From contig CAJYAN010000002.1 in the NCBI GenBank assembly GCA_913064945.1, positions 186,001-250,000 of the forward strand: 64,000 nucleotides of DNA, read 5' to 3'. Below are positions 5,690-62,050 of the stretch, in pieces. Position 1 is the stretch's first letter. Every line of letters starts with the position of its first letter. The notes under the pieces were generated by a model that searched no databases, had not been told where the DNA came from, and worked only from the letters and a program-made list of their open reading frames with translations. This stretch comes from an uncultured Gammaproteobacteria bacterium. GTDB taxonomy: Bacteria > Pseudomonadota > Gammaproteobacteria > UBA6429 > Thiohalophilaceae. The translations under genes and the position numbers were made by a program.

Positions 5690-5992
5690 ATGGCGCTGAC
5701 CAAAGCCGAAATGGCTGAACGGCTATTTGAAGAACTGGGGCTCAATAAACGTGAAGCCAAAGAACTGGTGGAAATGTTCTTTGAGGAAATCCGTGGTGCC
5801 CTGGAAAATGGCAAGCAGGTCAAGCTCTCCGGTTTTGGCAATTTCGATTTACGTGATAAAAAGCAACGCCCCGGACGTAACCCTAAAACGGGTGAGGAGA
5901 TACCGATTACCGCACGACGGGTGGTGACGTTCCGTCCAGGTCAAAAATTAAAGGCGAGAGTTGAAGCTTATGCTGGAACCCAGCAACAATAA
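5690..5992 (+). CDS. ihfA: Integration host factor alpha subunit
   Basis: IHF-alpha pairs with IHF-beta to bend DNA sharply at specific sites, helping recombination, replication and sigma-54 promoters. 100 residues, matching the family. It shows the start [20 protein letters not shown], the core [20 protein letters not shown] and the beta-arm with the intercalating proline ([18 protein letters not shown]). Position directly after pheT is conserved across Gammaproteobacteria. It overlaps the following MerR-type gene by 23 nt, implying co-translation. IHF is a usual cofactor of sigma-54 promoters such as those proposed at 18251 and 58829. Confidence 0.97.
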
Positions 5993-10671: not shown

Positions 10672-12768
10672 GTGGATTATATTTCTCATATGAAGGTGCT
10701 GGCATTTACTTCTTTTGGCTTAGCGGGTATTGCCTATGTTGTTCTGACTTTAATACTGGTGGCAAGCTGGCGCGGTAAACGACAGGGCATATTGTTAATT
10801 GCTGTGTCTGTTGTTCAGGTAGTCTGGGCGGTAGTCAATATTGCGGCTTATTGGGGCGGCGATCAATTTGTCTTATATGTATTTCTTGCAGAAATACTAC
10901 GTACGGCTTCCTGGTATTTTTTTATTGGCCAGGTATTTGATATGAGTGGCCGCTCTCGGATACAAACGATTTTGGGGGGCGGCGCATATATACTGCCTGC
11001 AGTAATTCTGGCGCTTGGCTTTTATTATGATTATGCGGATTTTTTCTCGCAGACATATTATGTCCAGAACACGACATTCGTATTTGATTTGATGCTCTAT
11101 AGCCTGTTTGGCATGGTACTGTTGGAGCAGTTTTATCGAAATAGCAGTGAAGACAATCGCTGGCGCATTAAGTTTCTGGTTTTCTCGCTTGGGGTGATTT
11201 TTGCCTATGACTTCTTCTTATATACCTATGCCTATCTCATGCAGGAAGTTGAACCCGGGTTATGGATTGCAAAAGGGATTGTCAATGCCGTCATTGTTCC
11301 CTTTATCGCAATTTCAGCTGCGCGCAATCCAAATTGGTCGCTTGATGTTTTTATCTCACGAAAATTTGCCTTCTATACCACCAGTTTCATGGCGGCGGGT
11401 ATATATCTACTATTTATGGGGGTGGGAGGGTACTACGTCCGACAATTAGGTGGTACCTGGGGGGTCTTTTTACAGGCCATTTTTCTTACTTTTGCGGCGT
11501 TATTGTTGTTTGTTATGATGTTTTCAGGCAGTGTTAGAGCCTGGATCAAAGTATTTGTCAGTAAGAATTTTTATAACTATAAATATGATTATCGTGATGA
11601 GTGGATGCGTTTAATGCGTATTCTCTCAACCAAAGACGACAATCAAAGTGTGAACGATAAAGCGATTAAATCACTAGCTCAAATTGTGGAGAGTCCTGGG
11701 GGGGCACTATGGTATTTGGCTGAAGATAATTGTTATCGTCATCTGTGTGACTGGAATATCCTAATTAAGGAAAAAGACAGTTTTGAAATGTCCAGCTCAT
11801 TGGTTAGTTATTTGCTAACCACTGGCTGGATTATAGACCTGGATGAATATCGGCAACAGCCTGAGAAATATGGTGAGTTGATATTGCCAGAGACTGTCAC
11901 TTCAATTCCTGATGCCTGGTTGATTATTCCTTTATCTCAAAATGAACAGCTTGATGGTGTGGTTGTACTAATGCATCCACGAACAAAAATTACAAGGACA
12001 TGGGAAGATTTAGATCTTCTCAAAACGGTAGCCACACTTGTCGCTAGTTATCTGGCACAACACGAGGCATCTCGAAAACTTGTGGAGACACAGCAATTTG
12101 CTGCATTTAACCGCTTATCTGCTTTTGTCGTTCATGATTTGAATAATCTGGTTGCACAACTCAGTCTGGTCGTGAAAAATGCTGAAAAGCATAAAGCTAA
12201 CCCTGACTTTATGGATGATGTAGTTAAAACGATAGAAAACGCAGTTAACAAAATGGATCGATTGTTAGCACAGTTACGTAAGGGGCGTTTTGAAAAGCAC
12301 TCAACAAATCAATTCGAATTAAACAGCGCAATCAAACAATCAATCGCGAGACAGGCAAACAAGCTGCCGGTGCCTGTTTTCTCTAGCGATGTCTCTGAAG
12401 CAATTATAGAAGTTGAGCGAGAACGATTTTGCTCGGTCCTAGAGCATTTGATAAGAAACGCACAGGAAGCGACCACAGAGGTTGATGGAAGAATTGATCT
12501 TCGTGTAAGAACGCAAGAAAATGTTGTCTACATTGAGATTGAAGACAATGGCTGTGGTATGGATGCCGAGTTTATTCGAGAACGCTTGTATAAGCCTTTT
12601 GAGACAACCAAAGGAAATGCTGGAATGGGTATCGGTGTTTATGAAAGTAAACAGTTCATTCAGGATGCCGGAGGTAGTTTAATGGTTAAGAGTGAAGTCG
12701 GCAGGGGGACCATCTTTACATTAAAATTACCTTTGGTAAAGATGGCCCATGAATTAGGAAATGTATAA
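10672..12768 (+). CDS. prsK: PEP-CTERM system histidine kinase PrsK
   Basis: Membrane sensor kinase of the exosortase A regulatory pair. 698 residues if it starts at GTG 10672; ATG 10690 would give 692, and neither has a clear ribosome site. About eight to nine hydrophobic segments fill residues 1-290, then a GAF-like domain (about 320-465), then the dimerisation/phospho-acceptor helix with His near residue 488 (FVVHDLNNLVAQLSL), and an HATPase domain with N box HLIRNAQEATTE, G1 EIEDNGCGMD and G2 GNAGMGIGVYES. It begins 6 nt after epsB and overlaps prsR by one base (TAATG), so the pair is co-translated. The signal sensed is unknown. Confidence 0.93.
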   Translation: MDYISHMKVLAFTSFGLAGIAYVVLTLILVASWRGKRQGILLIAVSVVQVVWAVVNIAAYWGGDQFVLYVFLAEILRTASWYFFIGQVFDMSGRSRIQTILGGGAYILPAVILALGFYYDYADFFSQTYYVQNTTFVFDLMLYSLFGMVLLEQFYRNSSEDNRWRIKFLVFSLGVIFAYDFFLYTYAYLMQEVEPGLWIAKGIVNAVIVPFIAISAARNPNWSLDVFISRKFAFYTTSFMAAGIYLLFMGVGGYYVRQLGGTWGVFLQAIFLTFAALLLFVMMFSGSVRAWIKVFVSKNFYNYKYDYRDEWMRLMRILSTKDDNQSVNDKAIKSLAQIVESPGGALWYLAEDNCYRHLCDWNILIKEKDSFEMSSSLVSYLLTTGWIIDLDEYRQQPEKYGELILPETVTSIPDAWLIIPLSQNEQLDGVVVLMHPRTKITRTWEDLDLLKTVATLVASYLAQHEASRKLVETQQFAAFNRLSAFVVHDLNNLVAQLSLVVKNAEKHKANPDFMDDVVKTIENAVNKMDRLLAQLRKGRFEKHSTNQFELNSAIKQSIARQANKLPVPVFSSDVSEAIIEVERERFCSVLEHLIRNAQEATTEVDGRIDLRVRTQENVVYIEIEDNGCGMDAEFIRERLYKPFETTKGNAGMGIGVYESKQFIQDAGGSLMVKSEVGRGTIFTLKLPLVKMAHELGNV

Positions 12769-14138
12769 TGGCCACAGTAGAAATGCAGAATAGAACGTTA
12801 CTGATTATCGAAGATGATGAAGGAATAAATAGTCAATTAAAATGGACTTTTGATGATTATGATACTCAGTTTGCAGGAGATCGCGCATCGGCGCTTGCTA
12901 CCGCACGACGTCACTCGCCATCCGTAATTACACTGGACCTGGGTTTGCCGCCTGACCCGGCAAACGCTAGTGAAGGTTTTCTAATTCTACATGAATTGAT
13001 TACATTACTTCCGTCCTCAAAAATAATAGTAGTTACCGGTAGCGATGATCGAGAGCATGCAATTCATGCGATTGGGGAGGGAGCCTATGATTTTTATCAA
13101 AAGCCAATTGACCCTGAGGTACTTAAGGTAATCGTAGCTAGAGCTTTTCATGTGTTTGACCTGGAAATGGAAAATCAGCGGTTGCTTCAGGGGCGCTTGA
13201 ATTTCCCGCTCGAAGGGATTATCGCTTCAAGTCCAGAGATGTTGAGGATTTGCCAAAATATAGAAAAAATTGCTCCAGCAGACGTTACAACGATGCTATT
13301 AGGGGATAGTGGCACAGGCAAGGAATTATTAGCAAAAGCGCTTCATCAGAATAGTTCTCGTAGTAAATGTCCATTTGTTGCAATTAACTGTGCAGCCATT
13401 CCGGAGAATTTACTTGAAAGTGAATTATTTGGTTATGAAAAAGGTGCCTTCACGGGGGCGTCTAAGCAAACCCTGGGGAAATTCGAGCTGGCGAATAGTG
13501 GGACTTTGTTTCTTGATGAAATCGGAGACCTGCCCCTATCTTTACAGGCAAAATTACTTAGGTTTTTACAGGAGCGAGTGATCGAACGTGTTGGCGGGCG
13601 CAAAGAAATTCCGGTCGACGTACGAGTTGTTTGTGCGACGCATCGCAATATACCTGAGATGGTAAAAAGCGGCGAATTTAGAGAAGATTTGTTTTATCGC
13701 CTGAGCGAGATTTCGATTGAAATTCCGCCATTAAGAGAACGGACAGGTGACGCAGTCTTATTGGCTCGAGCATTTCTTAGTCAGTATGCTGATAAGCATA
13801 ATAATAAAGTAAAAGGCTTTACGAAAGAGGCAATTATGGCTATTGATAGATACTCATGGCCGGGGAATGTTAGAGAATTAGAAAACAAGGTGAAGCGTGC
13901 AGCGATAATGGCTGAAGGCTCACGGATTACACCAGATGAACTTGACTTGATTTTAGATGAGAATTTGGAATCCGTTGCACCTCTGAACTTGAGAGCGGTA
14001 CGCGAGAGTGCAGAGAGAAGCGCTGTCGTACGAGCTTTAAGTTGCACGGGTAACAATGTAGCTCAGGCAGCCGAACTACTGGGTGTTACGCGCCCGACAT
14101 TATATGACCTGGTAAAGAAATTAGAAATAGTAGTTTGA
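12768..14138 (+). CDS. prsR: PEP-CTERM system sigma-54 response regulator PrsR
   Basis: A bacterial enhancer-binding protein that activates sigma-54 RNA polymerase when phosphorylated by PrsK. 456 residues: receiver domain 1-125 with acidic pocket E15-D16-D17 and phospho-acceptor D57 (TLDLGLPP); AAA+ domain 150-385 with Walker A GDSGTGKELLAKAL, the sigma-54-contacting loop GAFTGA (in ELFGYEKGAFTGA), Walker B GTLFLDEIGDL and arginine finger region; C-terminal Fis-type helix-turn-helix (NVAQAAELLGVTRPTLYDLV). All parts needed for sigma-54 activation are intact. Likely targets within the window are the sigma-54-type promoters at 18251-18266 and 58829-58844. Confidence 0.95.
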   Translation: MATVEMQNRTLLIIEDDEGINSQLKWTFDDYDTQFAGDRASALATARRHSPSVITLDLGLPPDPANASEGFLILHELITLLPSSKIIVVTGSDDREHAIHAIGEGAYDFYQKPIDPEVLKVIVARAFHVFDLEMENQRLLQGRLNFPLEGIIASSPEMLRICQNIEKIAPADVTTMLLGDSGTGKELLAKALHQNSSRSKCPFVAINCAAIPENLLESELFGYEKGAFTGASKQTLGKFELANSGTLFLDEIGDLPLSLQAKLLRFLQERVIERVGGRKEIPVDVRVVCATHRNIPEMVKSGEFREDLFYRLSEISIEIPPLRERTGDAVLLARAFLSQYADKHNNKVKGFTKEAIMAIDRYSWPGNVRELENKVKRAAIMAEGSRITPDELDLILDENLESVAPLNLRAVRESAERSAVVRALSCTGNNVAQAAELLGVTRPTLYDLVKKLEIVV

Positions 14139-14240: not shown

Positions 14241-17027
14241 ATGAAGGGAAATCAATATTTCAATTATATTCTGCTTGTATTGTTTTTGGCTGTAAGTATA
14301 GGTTGCAGTAAAGACCTGACGGATGCGGAATATTATAAGAATGCACAAGAGCATTATCAAAAAGGCGAGATAGATGCTGCAATAATTCAGTTGAAAAATG
14401 CCCTGCAAAAAAATGCTTCAAACCTTAAGGCGCGAGAATTGTTGGGCATGATATATGCTGACCTAGGCTTTGGCGCAGTCGCTGAGAAAGAACTTCGACG
14501 AGCAATTATCCTTGGCGCGGACGAAACTAAGCTCGATATGTATTTGGCTGAATCACTTTTTCAGCAAAAAAAATATCAGGATGTTTTTGATGATTTCTCA
14601 AAAACTTCTGGTCTGGATGCCAAAACCATATCAGAACATAATATTATTTTAACAAGAGCCTCGCTCGCTCTTCGCAAGCCAGAGGAGGCGAAGCGATATT
14701 TTGCAAAAATTTCAGACAGTGACAAAGAGACAGTTCCTGGCTTATATGTCTCTATCGACATGTCTTTGTTGTCACACGATTTAACAAATGCAAAAAAATT
14801 AGTTGAGAAAATAATATCTGAAAAACCAGACGAAGTACGAGCCTGGATGATAAAAGGGATGATTTCATATGACGAAGGCAATCTGCTAGAAGCGGAGACA
14901 AATTATAAAGAGGCGCTGCAGCACTATAAATCGAGACAGGCATCAAGTCTTATGTTGCAGGCTTCCACAGGCCTGTTTTATGCCGAATTAAAACAAAAAA
15001 AATATAATGAAGCCCTAGAAACATCAAAGAAATTGCTTTCGATGGCAAAAAATAGTCCGCAACCAAAATATCTACGTGGCTTATTGGCTTTTGAGCAGAA
15101 AGATTTCGATACTGCACAGAATTATCTTGAGGAGGTTTACAGTATCGTCCCCAATCATATACCAACAGTGATGCTACTAGGAAGTATCAATTATTTTAAA
15201 AAGAATTATGAACAAGCAAATAATTATTTAAGTTTCGTTATAAGTGAGAACCCGGAAAATATACAAGCACGCAAGTTGCTTGCTGCTACGCGAATGCATT
15301 TATATAAATCAGAAGATGCACTCAAAATTCTCGATCCGGTCGTTAGTAAAAAAACCACTGATAGCCAACTGCTTTCGATGGTGGCGGCCGCTGCTATTCA
15401 ATCTGGAAAAATTGATGTGGGCGAAAGTTATCTTAGGCGCGCACAGAAATCTAATCCTGACAATCCTTCAATACGCACTGAGCTTGCAAAAGTTTACATG
15501 CAAAAGGGAGAGTATGATGAGGCGATTAGTGAATTAGATAAAATCAAAAGTGACGACACTGATAGCACGAACATATTAAAGATAATGACCTATGTGCAGA
15601 AAAAAGATTTTGCGAGCGCAAGAAAGCTGGCTCAGGAAGTTAATCAACGGCGTGATGATGAACGTTCCCTGTCTTTGTTAGGAGGAGTTGAAAGGGCTGC
15701 GGGCAATTCAGATAAGGCTCGTATTTATTTTTCCCGGGCGCTGAAGAAAAATCCTGATTTTACACCTGCCTTACTCAATCTCGGAAAGCTTGAATTGCAG
15801 GAGGATAAGGTCACCGCAGCAAAAAATGATTTTAATAAGGTACTAAATAAGCAGCCTTCTAATGTTGCAGCGCTCCTGGGACTTGCACAAATAAGTGAAA
15901 AAGAAGGGGATAACAAGTCTGCATTAAACTATATAAAGATCGCGAGCGATAAAAATTCTAAAGCAATCCTGCCAAGAATACTGCTTGCGCGGTATTATAT
16001 TAAAGAGCGTAAATTGCCATCAGCATTACAATATGCAAAAGAAGCATACAATATAGCGCCAAAAGATGCTGGCCTGGCTATTTCCCTGGCGAATATCTAT
16101 ATCGTAAATCAGGATATTTTAAGTGCGCTGGGAGTTTTGGAGGATCTAAAGCAACAGCAACCTGACAATCCTACTGTTGCGCTGGAGATTGCGCGGGCCT
16201 ACATTAAAGACGAACGCACTGATGATGCGAAGAGTGAGCTAAGGCGGGCGATTTCACTAAAACCAGATTTCTATATTGCACAAATCACACTGGCTCGACT
16301 GCAGATTGCAGATGGCGAGTATGATAAGGCGATCAAGGAAGCAAAAATACTACAAAAACGTTATCCACTGGCAGCTATGGGTTACTTGCTCGAAGGTGAT
16401 GTTTATTCAGCGCAGAAAGCTTATCTAAAAGCTGAAGGCATGTATCAGAAGGCGACAAAAATAAAGGCATCGCCACTAACGTATATGAAGTCGGCCGAAG
16501 CACAAGTTCTACATAAAAATTCTGATAAGGCAATTGCGGAGTTGCAGGCAGGAATTAAAGCTTTTCCAAATGCAACTATCTTACAAATGCAAGTTGCCAC
16601 ATTATATCAGGCTGTTGGTCATCTTGATGAAGCTCAGACCACGTATGAAACATTGGTCAATAAATACCCGGAGAATATTGCCGTATTAAATAATCTGGCA
16701 TTGATTTATCTGGATAAAAAAGACAATCGAGCCGTAAAGTTAGCTGAAGCTGCTCATAATCTGGATCCTGAAAACCAGGCGGTTGCAGATACATTGGGTT
16801 GGATATATGTACAGTTGGGCCACACGAATAAAGGAACGCCATTATTAAAAGCAGCCGCCGATAAGACAGGCAATCCTTCCATTCAGTATCATTATGCCGT
16901 AGCACTTTCAGTGATTAAAAATGATGCTGCCGCGATTATGATGCTGAAAAAGGCCCTGGCGTCAGCGCACAATTTTGTTGAAAGAAAAGATGCTGAGGCG
17001 CTGCTTGAAAAACTCAATAAAAAATGA
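14241..17027 (+). CDS. prsT: PEP-CTERM system TPR-repeat lipoprotein PrsT
   Basis: A very large (928-residue) exported lipoprotein made almost wholly of tetratricopeptide repeats. The signal peptide ends in lipobox VSIGC with Cys22 as the lipidation site. Repeats start about residue 30 (AEYYKNAQEHYQKGEIDAAI) and run to the C-terminus, with typical units such as PDFTPALLNLGKLELQEDK. In exosortase A systems this protein accompanies PrsK/PrsR and probably scaffolds polysaccharide export or assembly in the periplasm; its exact role is not established. It lies 102 nt after prsR, so it may have its own promoter. Confidence 0.92.
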   Translation: MKGNQYFNYILLVLFLAVSIGCSKDLTDAEYYKNAQEHYQKGEIDAAIIQLKNALQKNASNLKARELLGMIYADLGFGAVAEKELRRAIILGADETKLDMYLAESLFQQKKYQDVFDDFSKTSGLDAKTISEHNIILTRASLALRKPEEAKRYFAKISDSDKETVPGLYVSIDMSLLSHDLTNAKKLVEKIISEKPDEVRAWMIKGMISYDEGNLLEAETNYKEALQHYKSRQASSLMLQASTGLFYAELKQKKYNEALETSKKLLSMAKNSPQPKYLRGLLAFEQKDFDTAQNYLEEVYSIVPNHIPTVMLLGSINYFKKNYEQANNYLSFVISENPENIQARKLLAATRMHLYKSEDALKILDPVVSKKTTDSQLLSMVAAAAIQSGKIDVGESYLRRAQKSNPDNPSIRTELAKVYMQKGEYDEAISELDKIKSDDTDSTNILKIMTYVQKKDFASARKLAQEVNQRRDDERSLSLLGGVERAAGNSDKARIYFSRALKKNPDFTPALLNLGKLELQEDKVTAAKNDFNKVLNKQPSNVAALLGLAQISEKEGDNKSALNYIKIASDKNSKAILPRILLARYYIKERKLPSALQYAKEAYNIAPKDAGLAISLANIYIVNQDILSALGVLEDLKQQQPDNPTVALEIARAYIKDERTDDAKSELRRAISLKPDFYIAQITLARLQIADGEYDKAIKEAKILQKRYPLAAMGYLLEGDVYSAQKAYLKAEGMYQKATKIKASPLTYMKSAEAQVLHKNSDKAIAELQAGIKAFPNATILQMQVATLYQAVGHLDEAQTTYETLVNKYPENIAVLNNLALIYLDKKDNRAVKLAEAAHNLDPENQAVADTLGWIYVQLGHTNKGTPLLKAAADKTGNPSIQYHYAVALSVIKNDAAAIMMLKKALASAHNFVERKDAEALLEKLNKK

Positions 17028-17553: not shown

Positions 17554-18207
17554 TTACTGCTTACGACGTTTTGCCGAGTAACCCAGGCCGAGCAGGCCAA
17601 GGCCCAGTAGACCAAGTGTTGCAGGTTCTGGAACGTTATGGAATGTCATTGTGCTGAGATAAAACTCTTCATCAACATAGGCGATATCCAGTGTCGTGCC
17701 CGCTGCTACATCCCAGGAGCCGGCTGAATAATCTACCTTCTGACCCAGGTTTGTTGTGAACTGATAATTAACGCCACCAATCATGATGTGATTCATATAC
17801 AGGCTATAATCTGCGTCATGATTATCATTAAAGGTGATATCGTCGATTTTTGTGTCGTACATGAAGGTCAAATGCAGTGTTTCACCTTTGACATCGACAT
17901 TATCATCACTACTTGGGTTACACAGATTGGCTTTACTACCTGGGTATTTAGTATTTGCTAGTGTAGGGTTGTATAATCCACCGCAGACACCGAGACCGGC
18001 ATTACCGCTATCCAAGTAGGCGTATCCTGTACCACCAGAAGATGAGGTTGCAGTAATACTCAGCCCGCCACTCAGGTTTAGTGTTGTCCAGGCACTCTCG
18101 CCATAACTTCCGTCGGCCATTGTCTTGAAGTTGTAACTGTAGGCATGTGCTGAAACCGCCGCAAAGCTGAGCACAGTCCCTAATGCTATTTTGTTAAGTT
18201 TGTTCAT
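17554..18207 (-). CDS. PEP-CTERM sorting domain protein (exosortase substrate)
   Basis: A 217-residue secreted protein with both export signals of the exosortase system. There is an N-terminal signal peptide (residues 1-22, ending SAHA) and a C-terminal tripartite PEP-CTERM signal from about residue 192: VPEPATLG, a Leu/Gly hydrophobic stretch, then a basic tail AKRRKQ. The body is rich in Gly, Ser, Asn and Asp with two Cys (GVCGG, ANLC) and no recognised enzyme motif. XrtA, encoded at 28445, is expected to cleave at the PEP motif and pass the protein to the cell surface or matrix. Good ribosome site AGGGGA. Its promoter is a sigma-54 type, linking it to PrsR. Confidence 0.95.
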   Translation of the reverse strand: MNKLNKIALGTVLSFAAVSAHAYSYNFKTMADGSYGESAWTTLNLSGGLSITATSSSGGTGYAYLDSGNAGLGVCGGLYNPTLANTKYPGSKANLCNPSSDDNVDVKGETLHLTFMYDTKIDDITFNDNHDADYSLYMNHIMIGGVNYQFTTNLGQKVDYSAGSWDVAAGTTLDIAYVDEEFYLSTMTFHNVPEPATLGLLGLGLLGLGYSAKRRKQ

Positions 18208-18250: not shown

Positions 18251-18266
18251 AGCAATTGCCATGCCA
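18251..18266 (-). promoter_or_regulatory. Sigma-54 promoter of the PEP-CTERM gene
   Basis: Read on the minus strand: TGGCAT-GGCAA-TTGCT, matching the -24/-12 consensus TGGCAC-N5-TTGCW at all but one position, with the invariant GG and GC ten bases apart. Predicted transcription start is near 18240, about 33 nt before the ATG at 18207. Confidence 0.85.
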
Positions 18267-18288: not shown

Positions 18289-18436
18289 TCAATATAAACA
18301 ATAAGTTACACATTATTCGGGTTTTGGTAAAAGTTATGTTTGACTAGATATGTAAAATTTTCTGACTATGTTCAAAATATGCTGACAGGCTAATACAGAG
18401 CAGAGCATAAATAATTCAATATAAACAATACGTTAC
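18289..18436. promoter_or_regulatory. Direct repeat upstream of the sigma-54 promoter (possible PrsR sites)
   Basis: TCAATATAAACAATA occurs at 18289-18303 and again at 18416-18430, each followed by one variable base and GTTAC. On the minus strand they read GTAAC(T/G)TATTG and so on. The near copy lies 32 nt upstream of the -24 element and the far copy ~127 nt further, positions where an enhancer-binding protein could bind. The rest of 18437-18757 is AT-rich with no gene; no clear sigma-70 promoter for the plus-strand operon was identified. Confidence 0.5.
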
Positions 18437-18757
18437 GCAATATTTATTAGTGTAAAATTTCTCGAACAACATTGTGCCCCGACTTCATTTGTCGTATTGA
18501 TAATGGCGCTTAGGCAGATATCGGGAATATCCGGGCAGCTGACGTTAGTGACGAAACACCTTAGATTAAGACGACGAACGGATGCATGTATTCTCCCCAG
18601 GCACGCCGCATGTGGAGCTACTGTCGGGAAGGTATCGTCATGTATTCAGTGTGCTAGTTAAATATCATTCCCAAATAAAATCAAAATGATATAGAATTAT
18701 CCTAGGGATAAACTTTAGTATCGTACACTCGAATTTTTCAAAAATGGGATATCAACC

Positions 18758-57856: not shown

Positions 57857-57975
57857 ATATGGCTACATTTATATTTTTGATCTGGATTATATCTTATGTT
57901 TTTTCAGTATGTTATTGAAGTATTTTCGACAAGTTTTGCACTTTTGCCTATTCACGATGATTGAGAGGAAGAAAT

Positions 57976-58752
57976 ATGAATCAAAGATTAGTACACCTGG
58001 CGGTCTTAATGACTTTCTGGGTATTTAGCGTTGCCAGGGCAGGTTTACCGGAGACGATTGAGAAAATTCGGCCCTCGATAGTCGCAATTGGTACTTATCA
58101 GGCAACCCGTTCACAGCCTTTGAAGGTGCAGGGAACGGGATTTATCGTGATGAATGGCCGCTACATTGCGACTAATTATCATGTCGTCTCGAAGGAAATC
58201 AAATTTGCCAAAGAAGAATATCGGGTTGTGCTAATTGGCCATGGACGCAATGTAAAATTCTATCGTTTGCATGAGGCCGCTCTGGATAGAGACCATGACC
58301 TGGCGCTGTACTCGTTTTCTGGTCCAAAACAACCGACGATGCGAATTCGTCAACACGGACAGGTGAGGGAAGGCGAGCGTTATGCCTTCACGGGTTATCC
58401 TATTGCGCCTATCCTGGGTTTGTATCCTGTGACTCATCGCGCCATTATATCCGCGATAACACCGATGGTGGCGAGGAGTAACAACAGTAACACCTTGACA
58501 GCAAAGCAAATTATTAAATTACGTTCAGGTTCGTATCAAGTCTACCAGCTGGATGCCATTGCTTTTCCTGGGAATAGTGGAAGCCCCGTTTATGACCCCG
58601 AGACTGGCCAGGTGATCGCCATACTGAATAGTGTCTATGTTAAGGGCTATCGTGAAAATGCGCTTCGTCATCCCAGCGGTATCAGCTATGCTATACCCGT
58701 CAGATATCTCGATGCCCTGATAGCGCAGGTAACGTCGAATTTGTCGAAATAA
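57976..58752 (+). CDS. Secreted trypsin-like serine protease
   Basis: A 258-residue exported protein: signal peptide 1-22 (VLMTFWVFSVARA), then a chymotrypsin fold. The triad is His69 (ATNYHVV), Asp108 (DRDHDLALY) and Ser201 (FPGNSGSPVYD), with spacing as in DegP-type or V8-type proteases. No PDZ domain. ATG 57976 with GAGAGGAAG upstream; a TTG at 57961 is less likely. It stands alone, but immediately precedes the Tat-exported GGYSPGYW protein, so it could process envelope proteins of that cassette. Confidence 0.9.
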   Translation: MNQRLVHLAVLMTFWVFSVARAGLPETIEKIRPSIVAIGTYQATRSQPLKVQGTGFIVMNGRYIATNYHVVSKEIKFAKEEYRVVLIGHGRNVKFYRLHEAALDRDHDLALYSFSGPKQPTMRIRQHGQVREGERYAFTGYPIAPILGLYPVTHRAIISAITPMVARSNNSNTLTAKQIIKLRSGSYQVYQLDAIAFPGNSGSPVYDPETGQVIAILNSVYVKGYRENALRHPSGISYAIPVRYLDALIAQVTSNLSK

Positions 58753-58788
58753 TTTACATAATATTATTTGGTCTTTATTTATCTCGTA

Positions 58789-58844
58789 TAACTCATTGAA
58801 TTATAACATAATATAATCCATGTCTATATGGTACAAATATTGCT
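58789..58844 (+). promoter_or_regulatory. Sigma-54 promoter (58829-58844) with upstream TAACTCATTG box
   Basis: TGGTAC-AAATA-TTGCT matches the -24/-12 consensus TGGYAC-N5-TTGCW exactly, with GG and GC ten bases apart. Predicted start of transcription is near 58856, 74 nt before the ATG at 58930. The box TAACTCATTG (58789-58798) lies 30 nt upstream of the -24 element. The PEP-CTERM gene has TAACTTATTG 32 nt upstream of its own, in the same orientation. Confidence 0.82.
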
Positions 58845-58929
58845 TTTAGATTGTGAAATACAGCAAATTTGTATGCGTGACATGGACATCGTTGCTACAA
58901 TCAGCTTGGATTAATCGAAGGTTCATAAG

Positions 58930-59532
58930 ATGTCAGAAAAGCAGATCGAAAATAGTACAAAACAGAGTGTCAGTCCGTTAAATTCCCGACGAAACCTTGT
59001 TAAAGGCGTTGTCGCCGCCCCTCTGTTAATGACCATTGCCAGTCGACCTGTGCTTGCCAAAGGGATCTGCACGCCATCTGCCTGGGTGTCGGGGAATTTA
59101 TCAGATACAAGCAGACTAAGAGAATGTGGTGGTTACAGTCCAGGTTACTGGAAGAAGAAGACCGATCAATGGCCAGCACCTTATCAGACGGGTACCTGTA
59201 AGCCGGGTGGATATAGTGGAAATAACGGAACCTGTACCGATTACAATAGTGACGGTACCAAGTTTCATGATGTTTTCAATGGTACCCAGTACGGCAGTGA
59301 TACCCTGATGCAGGTGTTATGGCGTACGGGAAATCAAGACTACAATAGATTAGGTTTTCACATTGTGGCTGCCTTATTGAATGCAGCCTCTATCTCTGAT
59401 TATGGTATGACGACTACTCAGGTGATTGATATGTATAATCAGTTACAGAGTACAGGCATGTATACTACCTCTGCTGGTGATCTCACAATTGACCAAGTCG
59501 TTGAGTATATTAAACAGACGTATAGTTATTAA
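58930..59532 (+). CDS. Tat-exported GGYSPGYW-motif protein, HPr-rel-A-type cassette
   Basis: A 200-residue secreted protein of unknown function. The N-terminus has a twin-arginine signal (NSRRNLVKG, Arg20-Arg21), a hydrophobic stretch and a cleavage site near residue 43 (RPVLA). The mature part has four Cys (47, 66, 90, 102) and the motif ECGGYSPGYWKKK (65-77). The C-terminal half contains helices and IVAALLNAASISDYG. Proteins with a CGGYSPGYW motif are known to sit with the PqqD-like and HprK-like genes that follow here, which suggests it is their target or is co-matured. Tat export implies folding or cofactor insertion in the cytoplasm. A 44-nt gap separates it from the PqqD-like gene. Confidence 0.75.
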   Translation: MSEKQIENSTKQSVSPLNSRRNLVKGVVAAPLLMTIASRPVLAKGICTPSAWVSGNLSDTSRLRECGGYSPGYWKKKTDQWPAPYQTGTCKPGGYSGNNGTCTDYNSDGTKFHDVFNGTQYGSDTLMQVLWRTGNQDYNRLGFHIVAALLNAASISDYGMTTTQVIDMYNQLQSTGMYTTSAGDLTIDQVVEYIKQTYSY

Positions 59533-59576
59533 ACGTACAATAATTATAAAAATACTTTTATATCGACATAGATGAT

Positions 59577-59846
59577 ATGGTCTGGGCACTCTATGCGAAC
59601 ACCACTCTTCATACCCGTATCATCGATGGCGACATACTCGCTTATCAGGAAGAGTCAGGTGATACCCACTTATTCCATCCGGTAACGTATGAATTATTGC
59701 AGTTATTAGCTCAAGGTCCTGTAGAGCAAGCGGATATTGTTGAAGGACTCCAGCATAAATTCGAATTTGATCGTACGGTGCTCAGCGAGTTACTAACAGA
59801 AGTACTACAAAACCTGGAACGGAATGGTATTTTAGAAAGACGCTAA
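59577..59846 (+). CDS. PqqD-family peptide-binding protein, HPr-rel-A type
   Basis: An 89-residue PqqD-like protein. The domain reads LHTRIIDGDILAYQEESGDTHLFHPVTYELLQLL, then two helices (VEQADIVEGLQHKFEFD, SELLTEVLQNLERNGILE), a compact winged-helix-like fold. PqqD proteins bind a precursor peptide and hand it to a modifying enzyme. Here it lies 3 nt before the HprK-like kinase and after the GGYSPGYW protein, so it may present that protein or a peptide to the kinase; this is inferred from order and the family's known role. Confidence 0.83.
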   Translation: MVWALYANTTLHTRIIDGDILAYQEESGDTHLFHPVTYELLQLLAQGPVEQADIVEGLQHKFEFDRTVLSELLTEVLQNLERNGILERR

Positions 59847-59849
59847 ATT

Positions 59850-60761
59850 TTGATACTCTCTGAACTTTCCAAAAAAGATTATATCAGGTTAATTTGCGAT
59901 CAGGGTGTCTCGTTAAAGACTGGACCATTTGTTGTCCGTATTCAATCATCAATTCAGGCCTTACAGGACAATTTGTATAGTCTGTATCGATACAATCATA
60001 TCGCACAATCTGCAGACTTTATTGATTTTAATATTCGTATAGCCCCCCCGGGAAATCTGCGTGCAGTTTGGCGGCCACAGGCCTATTTTTACCTGGATGA
60101 ACGGGTACCCTTTAAACCGCTACCTTATTCACAGGCATTTCCAATGCTCGAGTGGGGGATGAACTGGTGTATTTCCAATCATGCACATCAGTATTTAATA
60201 ATCCATGCCGCCGTGGCGGAACGAAATGGTCAGGGGATATTATTTCCTGCCCCGCCTGGCTCAGGAAAAAGTACATTGTGTGCCGCTTTAGTCAGTAAAG
60301 GCTGGCATCTTTTGTCCGATGAACTTGCCCTGTTTTCGCTCGAGACAGGTAAGCTGGTACCGCTTGCACGTCCTGTAAATCTTAAAAATGAATCCATCGA
60401 CGTCATGCAAGCTTATGCGCCTGAGGCAATATTTTCAGGGCGATTTCTTGATACCAGCAAAGGGACTGTCTCGCTTATGGCGGCACCCAAGGATAGCGTT
60501 GAGAAGTCACAGGAGGAGATATCACTACGGCATGTGATATTCCCACATTATGTGAAACAGTCATCAATGCAATATCGTGAGATAGGCCAGGGAGAGGGGA
60601 TTTTAAAGGTTATAGATAATGCCTTTAACTATAGCGTTTTAGGATTACAGGGGTTTGAATTTTTAAGCCGGATAATGGAAAAAGTAAATATAGCATCCTT
60701 TGAATATAGTGAGCTTGATGATGCGATAGGCTATTTTAATGGTTTGGTGAATGACGAATAA
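59850..60761 (+). CDS. HprK-related kinase A
   Basis: A 303-residue ATPase/kinase distantly related to HPr kinase/phosphorylase. Walker A is APPGSGKST (about 134-142, Lys140), and an acidic segment LLSDELAL follows. The HprK signature loop is not clear, and no PTS HPr is encoded nearby, so the substrate is unlikely to be classical HPr. Start is TTG 59850 with a weak ribosome site; translation is probably coupled to the PqqD-like gene 3 nt upstream. It overlaps the nucleotidyltransferase by 11 nt. In the HPr-rel-A gene set this kinase is always with a PqqD-like protein, as I recall. Confidence 0.82.
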   Translation: MILSELSKKDYIRLICDQGVSLKTGPFVVRIQSSIQALQDNLYSLYRYNHIAQSADFIDFNIRIAPPGNLRAVWRPQAYFYLDERVPFKPLPYSQAFPMLEWGMNWCISNHAHQYLIIHAAVAERNGQGILFPAPPGSGKSTLCAALVSKGWHLLSDELALFSLETGKLVPLARPVNLKNESIDVMQAYAPEAIFSGRFLDTSKGTVSLMAAPKDSVEKSQEEISLRHVIFPHYVKQSSMQYREIGQGEGILKVIDNAFNYSVLGLQGFEFLSRIMEKVNIASFEYSELDDAIGYFNGLVNDE

Positions 60762-61839
60762 AGTCAGCAACAAAAGATGTCTGATATTTGAGGTAATGCT
60801 TTCTCCTGAGAAAGTGTCGACATTCGACGTGCGTGACTGGGAAGTCTTAATTCGTCAGGCCCGTCAGGAGCGTTTATTAGCCCGTCTGTATTATCACCTA
60901 AGCTCATCAGATTTTATTTCCTATGCACCGGAAAAAGCGCAATTACACATGCAGTCGGCCTGGAAAGTTGCGGAGAAACATGAATTGAGTGTGCGCTGGG
61001 AGGTGGACCGTATTCTTTATGCGCTTCGCGATATTGATAGTGAGATTATCCTGCTCAAAGGCGCTGCGTATTTATTTGCCAACCGCACATGCGCGCCAGG
61101 TCGGTTATATACGGATGTAGATATCCTGGTAGATAAAATGCAGATGCCGGATGTTGAAAAGGCATTGATGATTCAGGGATGGGTTCAGGAAGAACTGGAT
61201 GAGTATGACCAGCATTATTATCGAAAATGGACGCATGAAATTCCGCCGCTTCGGCATCGACGTCGTAATACCCTGTTAGATGTCCATCACTCTATCACGC
61301 CCAATATTTTTCATTACGATATCGGTGCGGAAGATCTACTACCAGATAGTATTGAAATTGCGCGTGGTGTGCGTGTCCTTTCAAACGAGGACATGCTATT
61401 GCACGTCATCGTTCACCTGGTGAATGAAGAAGATTTTTCGAGTGGATACCGTGACCTATTGGATATTGCTTTTTTAATACAGGATTTTTCTGATATAAAA
61501 GAGTTTTGGGACAGGCTATTACAACGAGCGCAGGACCTGGATTTCGAGTTACCGCTGTTTTACGGCCTTAAGCTTGTGGCGCATTATAAGTTACAAAAAA
61601 TTGATGCCCTTGTCATTAGGCAGCTGGAAAAGCGTCTTGGTATTCTAAAGTGGCTGGTTCGTAGTATAGTGTGTTATCTGCTGGTAAAAGTAGTTTTTCC
61701 AAAAGATAGTCAATGCCAACAAAAAGGATTGTTTTTCTCTCGATGGTTATTATATGTCCGTGGACATTATCTGAGGATGCCTCTATATTTGCTTGTGCCT
61801 CATTTAATACGCAAGTCATTTAAGCAAAAAGAATACTAA
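60751..61839 (+). CDS. Nucleotidyltransferase family protein (NTP_transf_5-like)
   Basis: A 362-residue protein with the minimal nucleotidyltransferase signature: LLKGAAYLF, then GRLYTDVDILVDK with metal ligands Asp122 and Asp124, and a third acidic position near DVHHSITP. The C-terminal half is helical and ends with a basic hydrophobic stretch (LVPHLIRKSFKQK). It would attach a nucleotide or nucleotide-sugar to a protein or small molecule. It overlaps the HprK-like gene by 11 nt, which makes a functional link likely. Confidence 0.82.
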   Translation: MTNKVSNKRCLIFEVMLSPEKVSTFDVRDWEVLIRQARQERLLARLYYHLSSSDFISYAPEKAQLHMQSAWKVAEKHELSVRWEVDRILYALRDIDSEIILLKGAAYLFANRTCAPGRLYTDVDILVDKMQMPDVEKALMIQGWVQEELDEYDQHYYRKWTHEIPPLRHRRRNTLLDVHHSITPNIFHYDIGAEDLLPDSIEIARGVRVLSNEDMLLHVIVHLVNEEDFSSGYRDLLDIAFLIQDFSDIKEFWDRLLQRAQDLDFELPLFYGLKLVAHYKLQKIDALVIRQLEKRLGILKWLVRSIVCYLLVKVVFPKDSQCQQKGLFFSRWLLYVRGHYLRMPLYLLVPHLIRKSFKQKEY

Positions 61840-61855: not shown

Positions 61856-62050
61856 ATGGACAAGTTACTGAAGTTGGTTGGCGATCTGGCTGCAATTATT
61901 GGAATAATTGTTTGTATTGTCGCGGGTGTATCACGCATAAGTGGCCATTATCATTTGGCCGGCTTCGAAACGGTCACTTTGTTTATTGCGGGAATTGCAA
62001 TTATGCTGGTTGCGAGCCTGATTAAACTCTACCGCATCGAAAATAGATAA
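61856..62050 (+). CDS. Small two-helix membrane protein
   Basis: A 64-residue protein with two hydrophobic segments (about 10-28, LAAIIGIIVCIVAGVS; about 37-57, TVTLFIAGIAIMLVASLI). It has a strong ribosome site (AAAGGAGAAG) and starts 16 nt after the nucleotidyltransferase, so it belongs to the same transcript. No family recognised. It could anchor the cassette's cytoplasmic enzymes to the membrane, but that is a guess. Confidence 0.65.
   Translation: MDKLLKLVGDLAAIIGIIVCIVAGVSRISGHYHLAGFETVTLFIAGIAIMLVASLIKLYRIENR

Follow-up and report, generated by a model that had tools for sequence, protein, structure and literature searches.

The closest described counterparts of this locus fall into two groups, one regulatory and one enzymatic. 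Most proteobacterial PEP-CTERM genes have been reported to be preceded by motif 1, a 17-nt element ending in TTTACA that was predicted to be a response-regulator site, which is followed by a spacer of 62.8 nt on average (32-92) and then by a sigma-54 element (Haft 2006, PMC1569441). A few additional sites before other genes were reported in the same work, although these genes are not named in its accessible text. In Aquincola tertiaricarbonis, high transcription of the PEP-CTERM gene pepA requires rpoN1, and -24/-12 motifs are found at the mapped start (PMC9850573). The accessible texts characterise the PrsK-PrsR regulon through PEP-CTERM genes.

The enzymatic counterpart comes from lasso peptide clusters, where a PqqD-like protein binds the leader, a homologue of HPr kinase phosphorylates a C-terminal serine and, in the case of pseudomycoidin, the phosphate is extended with one or two hexoses by a nucleotidyltransferase (PMC8498205; PMC7533575). 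Within the open-access literature searched, neither the term HPr-rel-A nor the phrase 'HprK-related kinase' together with PqqD was found, and the open-access titles and abstracts searched describe no link of exosortase or PEP-CTERM to a cassette of HprK, PqqD and twin-arginine proteins.

The stretch of DNA analysed here, 64 kb long and referred to below as the window, carries the prsK, prsR and prsT genes, a PEP-CTERM gene and a cassette encoding a Tat-signal protein, a PqqD-like protein, an HprK-related kinase and a nucleotidyltransferase (Table 1). Its promoter sequence suggests that the operon at 58930-61839 very likely belongs to the PrsK-PrsR/sigma-54 regulon that drives PEP-CTERM genes, and that the cassette and the genes for PEP-CTERM surface proteins are probably switched on together. 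This would give an unstudied kinase/transferase cassette its first biological context, the building of an exopolysaccharide surface, and PrsR a target beyond the PEP-CTERM genes; it also leads to a proposal for what HPr-rel-A proteins act on.

Table 1. Coordinates of the genes and promoter elements in the window.
Feature	Position	Strand	Detail
prsK	10672..12768	+	TIGR02916, 752.4 bits, cut-off 300
prsR	12768..14138	+	TIGR02915, 702.9 bits, cut-off 502.6; GAFTGA present
prsT	14241..17027	+	TIGR02917, 629.2 bits, cut-off 312.2
PEP-CTERM protein gene	17554..18207	-	
sigma-54 element of PEP-CTERM gene, TGGCAT-GGCAA-TTGCT	18251..18266	-	
IHF-like site of PEP-CTERM gene, TAACTTATTGTTT	18296..18308	-	covers second box of the initial annotation
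motif 1 of PEP-CTERM gene, AGTCAGAAAATTTTACA	18351..18367	-	84 nt before -24 element
HtrA/trypsin-like protease gene, upstream of cassette promoter	57961..58752	+	family scores below curated cut-offs
motif-1 element of cassette, TGTCGAAATAATTTACA, predicted PrsR site	58742..58758	+	2 mismatches to TGTCGGAAAAATTTACA
IHF-like site of cassette, TAACTCATTGAAT	58789..58801	+	1 mismatch to YAAN4TTGATW; includes TAACnnATTG box 58789-58798
sigma-54 -24/-12 element of cassette, TGGTACAAATATTGCT (TGGTAC-AAATA-TTGCT)	58829..58844	+	
Tat-like-signal protein with GGYSPGYW, first cassette gene	58930..59532	+	200 aa; signal judged by eye
PqqD-like protein, HPr-rel-A system	59577..59846	+	TIGR04353, 45.5 bits, cut-off 35
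HprK-related kinase A	59850..60761	+	TIGR04352, 352.3 bits, cut-off 200
nucleotidyltransferase	60751..61839	+	PF14907, 167.9 bits, cut-off 31.2
membrane-protein-like ORF	61856..62050	+	64 aa; behind AAGGAG

Promoter elements before the cassette

The initial annotation had described sigma-54 elements before the first cassette gene and, on the minus strand, before the PEP-CTERM gene, each with a TAACnnATTG box 30-32 nt upstream, and the sequence reads as it had said: the box TAACTCATTG lies 30 nt from the -24 TGG of the cassette (+), and TAACTTATTG, at 18308-18299 (-), lies 32 nt from that of the PEP-CTERM gene. PrsR, encoded at 12768-14138, contains GAFTGA and scores above its family cut-off, and rpoN is present in the genome. 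What the initial annotation had missed is motif 1, and the likely PrsR site, judged by sequence, is 58742-58758.

In agreement with the textual description of motif 1, this element is 17 nt long and ends in TTTACA; its spacer of 70 nt to the -24 element falls within the published range, and a -24/-12 element of the published type stands downstream, so that the window shares with the described PEP-CTERM system both its motifs 1 and 2 and its PrsK/R/T genes (Haft 2006, PMC1569441). It differs in that the genes of that report encode PEP-CTERM proteins, whereas the cassette genes are without PEP-CTERM. The additional sites are said in the accessible text never to lie in coding regions, while the cassette motif 1 shares the last 11 nt of the upstream ORF 57961-58752. 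Likewise, the RpoN1-dependent pepA, which adjoins prsT and has a predicted enhancer upstream, has -24/-12 motifs in common with the cassette, but it is a PEP-CTERM gene, whereas the cassette encodes a Tat-signal protein and putative modification enzymes (PMC9850573).

In the genome from which the window comes (3.21 Mb), the cassette motif is the second-best match to the 17-mer TGTCGGAAAAATTTACA. This seed consensus was chosen once upstream regions, among them that of the cassette, had been compared by eye, and it is identical to the site before the PEP-CTERM gene at C7. Taken by itself, motif 1 is a poor discriminator (23 matches with at most 3 mismatches against 11 in the reversed control); it is the pair of motif 1 and sigma-54 element that carries the argument. 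The pattern TTTACA N58-88 TGGYNYRN4TTGCW has five matches in this genome and none in the reversed control. Three of the matches precede PEP-CTERM genes and one the cassette; at the fifth, C1:353184, no gene was recognised. The genome has four PEP-CTERM genes that exceed the Pfam cut-off, and the one outside this set has a weaker pair. When 30 of the 31 sites with a sigma-54 pattern in the genome were examined, motif 1 (at most 4 mismatches) was found within 130 nt upstream of five, again those of three PEP-CTERM genes and of the cassette, plus one with no recognised gene behind it.

Two further observations concern this genome. The fifth PrsR-type promoter, at C1:353173-353267, scores 41.5 with the matrix described below and has no recognised gene behind it; from the expected start, 157 nt run through a hairpin, which is followed by a T-run. 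Together with the roughly 160 bases behind it (L004, L042, L132), it is a candidate for a PrsR-dependent small RNA, as far as its sequence goes. Farther upstream of the PEP-CTERM gene in the window, at about 18420-18480 (-), there are a second TAACGTATTGTTTATATTG and a stretch of AAATTTTACAC, which resemble a repeated enhancer.

Recurrence of the promoter and its spacing

A two-part matrix for motif 1 and the sigma-54 element was trained on the regions of PEP-CTERM genes, with 39 of 55 region-strands accepted (two of which are one place) and no cassette region included, although the training regions and the cassettes of set 1 come from the same genomes. Two of the 55 reverse-complement controls in training scored above 17 (19.8 and 32.2). 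With this matrix, the cassette promoter of the window scores 39.5, and on both strands of the 64 kb just two sites reach 18, namely those of the cassette and of the PEP-CTERM gene.

Many genomes have this promoter ahead of the cassette. The 39 relatives in which HprK-related kinase A exceeds its cut-off supplied the cassette loci, and their usual gene order is Tat-signal protein, PqqD-like protein, kinase and nucleotidyltransferase in succession. Set 1 comprised 39 scored cassettes, those of 38 relatives and the window; L122, whose contig is cut before the first gene, was left out, L113 was scored with little upstream sequence, and the position of the first gene was set by hand in L111, L115, L116, L119 and L120. 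At least 20 was reached by 30 of the 39 and at least 25 by 27, compared with a null of 7800 sequences in which the rate at 20 or more was 0.00013, none reached 25 and the maximum was 24.0. Over 308,660 bases of the 39 relatives' loci, read on both strands, 29 pairs scoring at least 22 coincide with the cassette promoter, against 3 at other places. The nine cassettes below 20 are L100, L105, L113, L119, L120, L121, L124, L126 and L129; of these, L124 comes from the sole kinase genome in which PrsK was not found (G008, 75% complete), and L119 and L121 have a promoter pair farther upstream, before a protease-like gene and the cassette. A second set was drawn from 80 named loci of a contig scan, many of them betaproteobacterial by title, of which 74 were scored after four duplicates of set 1 and two short loci had been left out. 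Here, 57 of 74 scored at least 20 (hence 17 below), 55 at least 22 and 54 at least 25, while the null of 3200 sequences gave a rate of 0.0009 at 20 or more and none at 22 or more; one of 160 controls exceeded 25 (L227, 38.3).

Some loci depart from the usual layout. L116, L118, L126 and L128-L130 have their nucleotidyltransferase match upstream, on the opposite strand, and the Tat-signal protein of these same six loci looks to be of another type. Malonomonas rubra, which lies outside the beta- and gammaproteobacteria, has a cassette (L217) with a PrsR-type promoter scoring 36.2. In a Zoogloea isolate (L213), the score of the cassette promoter is 29.7.

Spacers between motif 1 and the -24 element follow a periodicity of about 10.8 bp, both at PEP-CTERM promoters (n = 38, R 0.70) and at cassettes (set 1, n = 30, R 0.61; set 2, n = 57, R 0.64), and jittered controls equalled this phase in 0, 1 and 0 of 2000 trials, respectively. 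Spacers of both kinds of promoter cluster near 52, 63, 74, 85 and 95 nt. In an initial phase test, seven of the 39 training spacings had been omitted deliberately or as a duplicate and one inadvertently, leaving 31; the result holds when repeated with 38, the duplicate being removed. The accessible text of Haft 2006 gives the mean, SD and range of the spacer and makes no mention of phasing at about 10.8 bp (PMC1569441). Matrix and spacing rule together allow further members of the regulon to be searched for. At 70 nt, the spacer of the window is out of phase (0.42 against a mean of 0.78 turn at 10.9 bp, about 0.36 turn off), which speaks against this promoter copy being at full strength, the phase being a trend (R 0.64) and not a published criterion.

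The off-phase spacing, the overlap of motif 1 with the end of the protease ORF, and the promoters of L119 and L121 ahead of a protease-like gene and the cassette would all suit a reading in which 58742-58844 is a decayed or chance promoter and expression of the cassette comes from the upstream protease gene or from another promoter. This reading is regarded as quite improbable, given that the score of the window exceeds those of all 7800 null sequences and that the only other site of at least 18 in the window belongs to the PEP-CTERM gene.

The distribution of the kinase is nested, with one exception, in that of PrsK, which was used as the marker in other genomes instead of PrsR, with at most three candidates scored per genome. 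Of 369 genomes of the class, 40 have HprK-related kinase A above its cut-off (27 family labels) and 108 have PrsK above its own; PrsK was found in 39 of the 40 kinase genomes and in 69 of the 329 others (Fisher 1.5e-22, kinship ignored), and PEP-CTERM was found in 37 of the 40. A strict promoter pattern, which misses the genome of the window and was applied solely for contrasting genomes that have PrsK with those that lack it, matches in 44 of the 369 genomes and, in reversed form, in none; 40 of these 44 have PrsK. Of the remaining four, G351 has one match, and G099, G215 and G299 have two or three apiece, perhaps because their PrsK genes were missed. A second alternative, in which a different NtrC-type activator with a similar site reads the cassette promoter and co-regulation with PEP-CTERM genes is merely apparent, is regarded as unlikely: it could draw on the off-phase spacing of the window and on PrsR binding to motif 1 being a prediction in the accessible texts, but a matrix trained on PEP-CTERM promoters fits most cassettes, and PrsK accompanies the kinase in 39 of 40 genomes and the strict promoter in 40 of 44. 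The suggestion of the initial annotation that the cassette is controlled together with exosortase sorting is supported as far as the PEP-CTERM-type promoter and the presence of PrsK in 39 of 40 kinase genomes are concerned, while a role of the box as the shared regulator site is not.

The TAACnnATTG box and IHF-like sites

The box does occur at both promoters, and TAACNNATTG N22-44 TGGYAYRN4TTGCW has three matches in the genome of the window against none in the reversed control, for which reason the observation is more than chance. Two of these are the pairs already mentioned, and the third precedes a gene that by eye is substrate-binding-protein-like. Among the cassette promoters, the exact box is present in 7 of 87 (null mean 0.14, maximum 2). 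That TAACnnATTG is itself the PrsR site linking both promoters is nevertheless very hard to maintain and was rejected, as the other 80 of the 87 are without an exact box and the box fits an IHF consensus that is common in cassette promoters. The exact box stands within 60 nt upstream of 5 of the 30 sigma-54-pattern sites examined; only two of the five are the PEP-CTERM gene and the cassette, so that, on the terms set by the initial annotation, its link to these genes is refuted in part, and the other three have no motif 1, two of them lying, by eye, before substrate-binding-protein-like and soxY-like genes.

Box sites were scored with YAAN4TTGATW, which we take to be the IHF consensus, and both boxes match it with one mismatch. 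In the interval that separates motif 1 from the -24 element, 58 of the 87 cassette promoters carry an IHF-like site with at most one mismatch (null mean 11, maximum 22) and 13 an exact one (null mean 0.57, maximum 4). Counted from the -24 element, many of these sites lie near -19/-20, -31/-33 or -42/-44. Because of the consensus match and the three exact-box sites without motif 1, the box more likely marks a bend, as an IHF-like site, than the regulon. A homologue of ihfA lies at 5693-5977, about 4.7 kb before prsK (174.2 bits, cut-off 120.25).

Taking these elements together, activated PrsR would bind motif 1 (58742-58758), a bend formed by IHF or a similar protein at 58789-58801 would carry it to the sigma-54 RNA polymerase at 58829-58844, and transcription of the operon would coincide with the production of exosortase substrates. 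The sequence itself shows how the promoter is built, its recurrence ahead of the cassette and the nested co-occurrence with PrsK; binding by PrsR and by IHF and the reading of the four genes as one transcript are what we infer from this arrangement.

Cassette proteins and their possible function

The adjacent PqqD_rel_X and HprK_rel_A proteins both score over their cut-offs, as expected of an HPr-rel-A system; the two families (TIGR04352 and TIGR04353, NCBIfam) were compared by their names and one-line descriptions. The kinase is related to HPr kinase by profile and, in its model, by fold, but it is not an HPr(Ser) kinase/phosphatase proper (TIGR00679, 20.7 bits, cut-off 240). Its P-loop residues G137, G139, K140 and T142 are invariant in both alignments. 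The model (mean pLDDT 94.4) indicates an HprK/PEPCK-like fold, with best matches to PEP carboxykinases (Z 16.6, rmsd 5.0, 283 residues) that span nearly the whole length of the kinase; HPr kinases appear lower among its Foldseek matches (best E 3e-5) and are absent from the 50 VIA entries listed.

The first protein was called a Tat-signal protein from an RR pair and a hydrophobic stretch, judged by eye. It falls in no Pfam or NCBIfam family at E 0.01 and hence has no PEP-CTERM domain, its profile finds solved structures at best at E 0.6 and 0.98, and its model (mean pLDDT 77.6) yields neither a Foldseek match at E<=0.001 nor, among 205 chains, a VIA-align match at Z>=2. In an alignment of 34 chosen Tat-signal proteins, two serines just behind the signal peptide, S50 and S54, do not vary, and S58 is conserved in at least 90%; these three serines are candidate targets of modification. 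A permissive serine pattern is found in 85 of 102 first proteins, in a search that requires a twin-arginine pair and from which 12 proteins were left out by name. Several of the 17 that fail belong to another subtype; either the target differs, then, or the modification model is wrong.

The PqqD-like protein, HPr kinase homologue and nucleotidyltransferase of paeninodin and pseudomycoidin are the same three kinds of protein as in the cassette, yet lasso phosphorylation takes place on a C-terminal serine, with which the window protein does not end, and lasso substrates are peptides, whereas the candidate substrate of the cassette is a Tat-signal protein of 200 aa (PMC8498205; PMC7533575). In addition, a Pfam scan of the four cassette proteins found no lasso cyclase or B2 protease family. 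The family of the fourth protein, PF14907, is presumably that of the lasso nucleotidyltransferase.

By analogy, it is tentatively proposed that the PqqD-like protein might recruit the Tat-signal protein in the cytoplasm, where the HprK-like kinase would phosphorylate it and the nucleotidyltransferase would attach a sugar or a nucleotide moiety to the phosphate, and that the folded protein would then be exported by Tat to the same exopolysaccharide layer. Modification in the cytoplasm would be feasible, since Tat export would leave time for it. It is rather doubtful, if conceivable, that the cassette forms a conserved second arm of the exosortase/exopolysaccharide programme, dedicated under PrsR to phosphorylating a folded protein and then glycosylating or nucleotidylating it before Tat exports it; such an arm would employ the enzyme trio of phosphoglycosylated lasso peptides but act on a whole protein.

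Two neighbouring genes may be mentioned. The HtrA/trypsin-like protease recurs beside the cassette, with tblastn matches in 37 of 119 fetched loci, a count in which L093 and L194 are one place and L130 is weak. At the other end, the 64-aa ORF is possibly the last gene of the operon.
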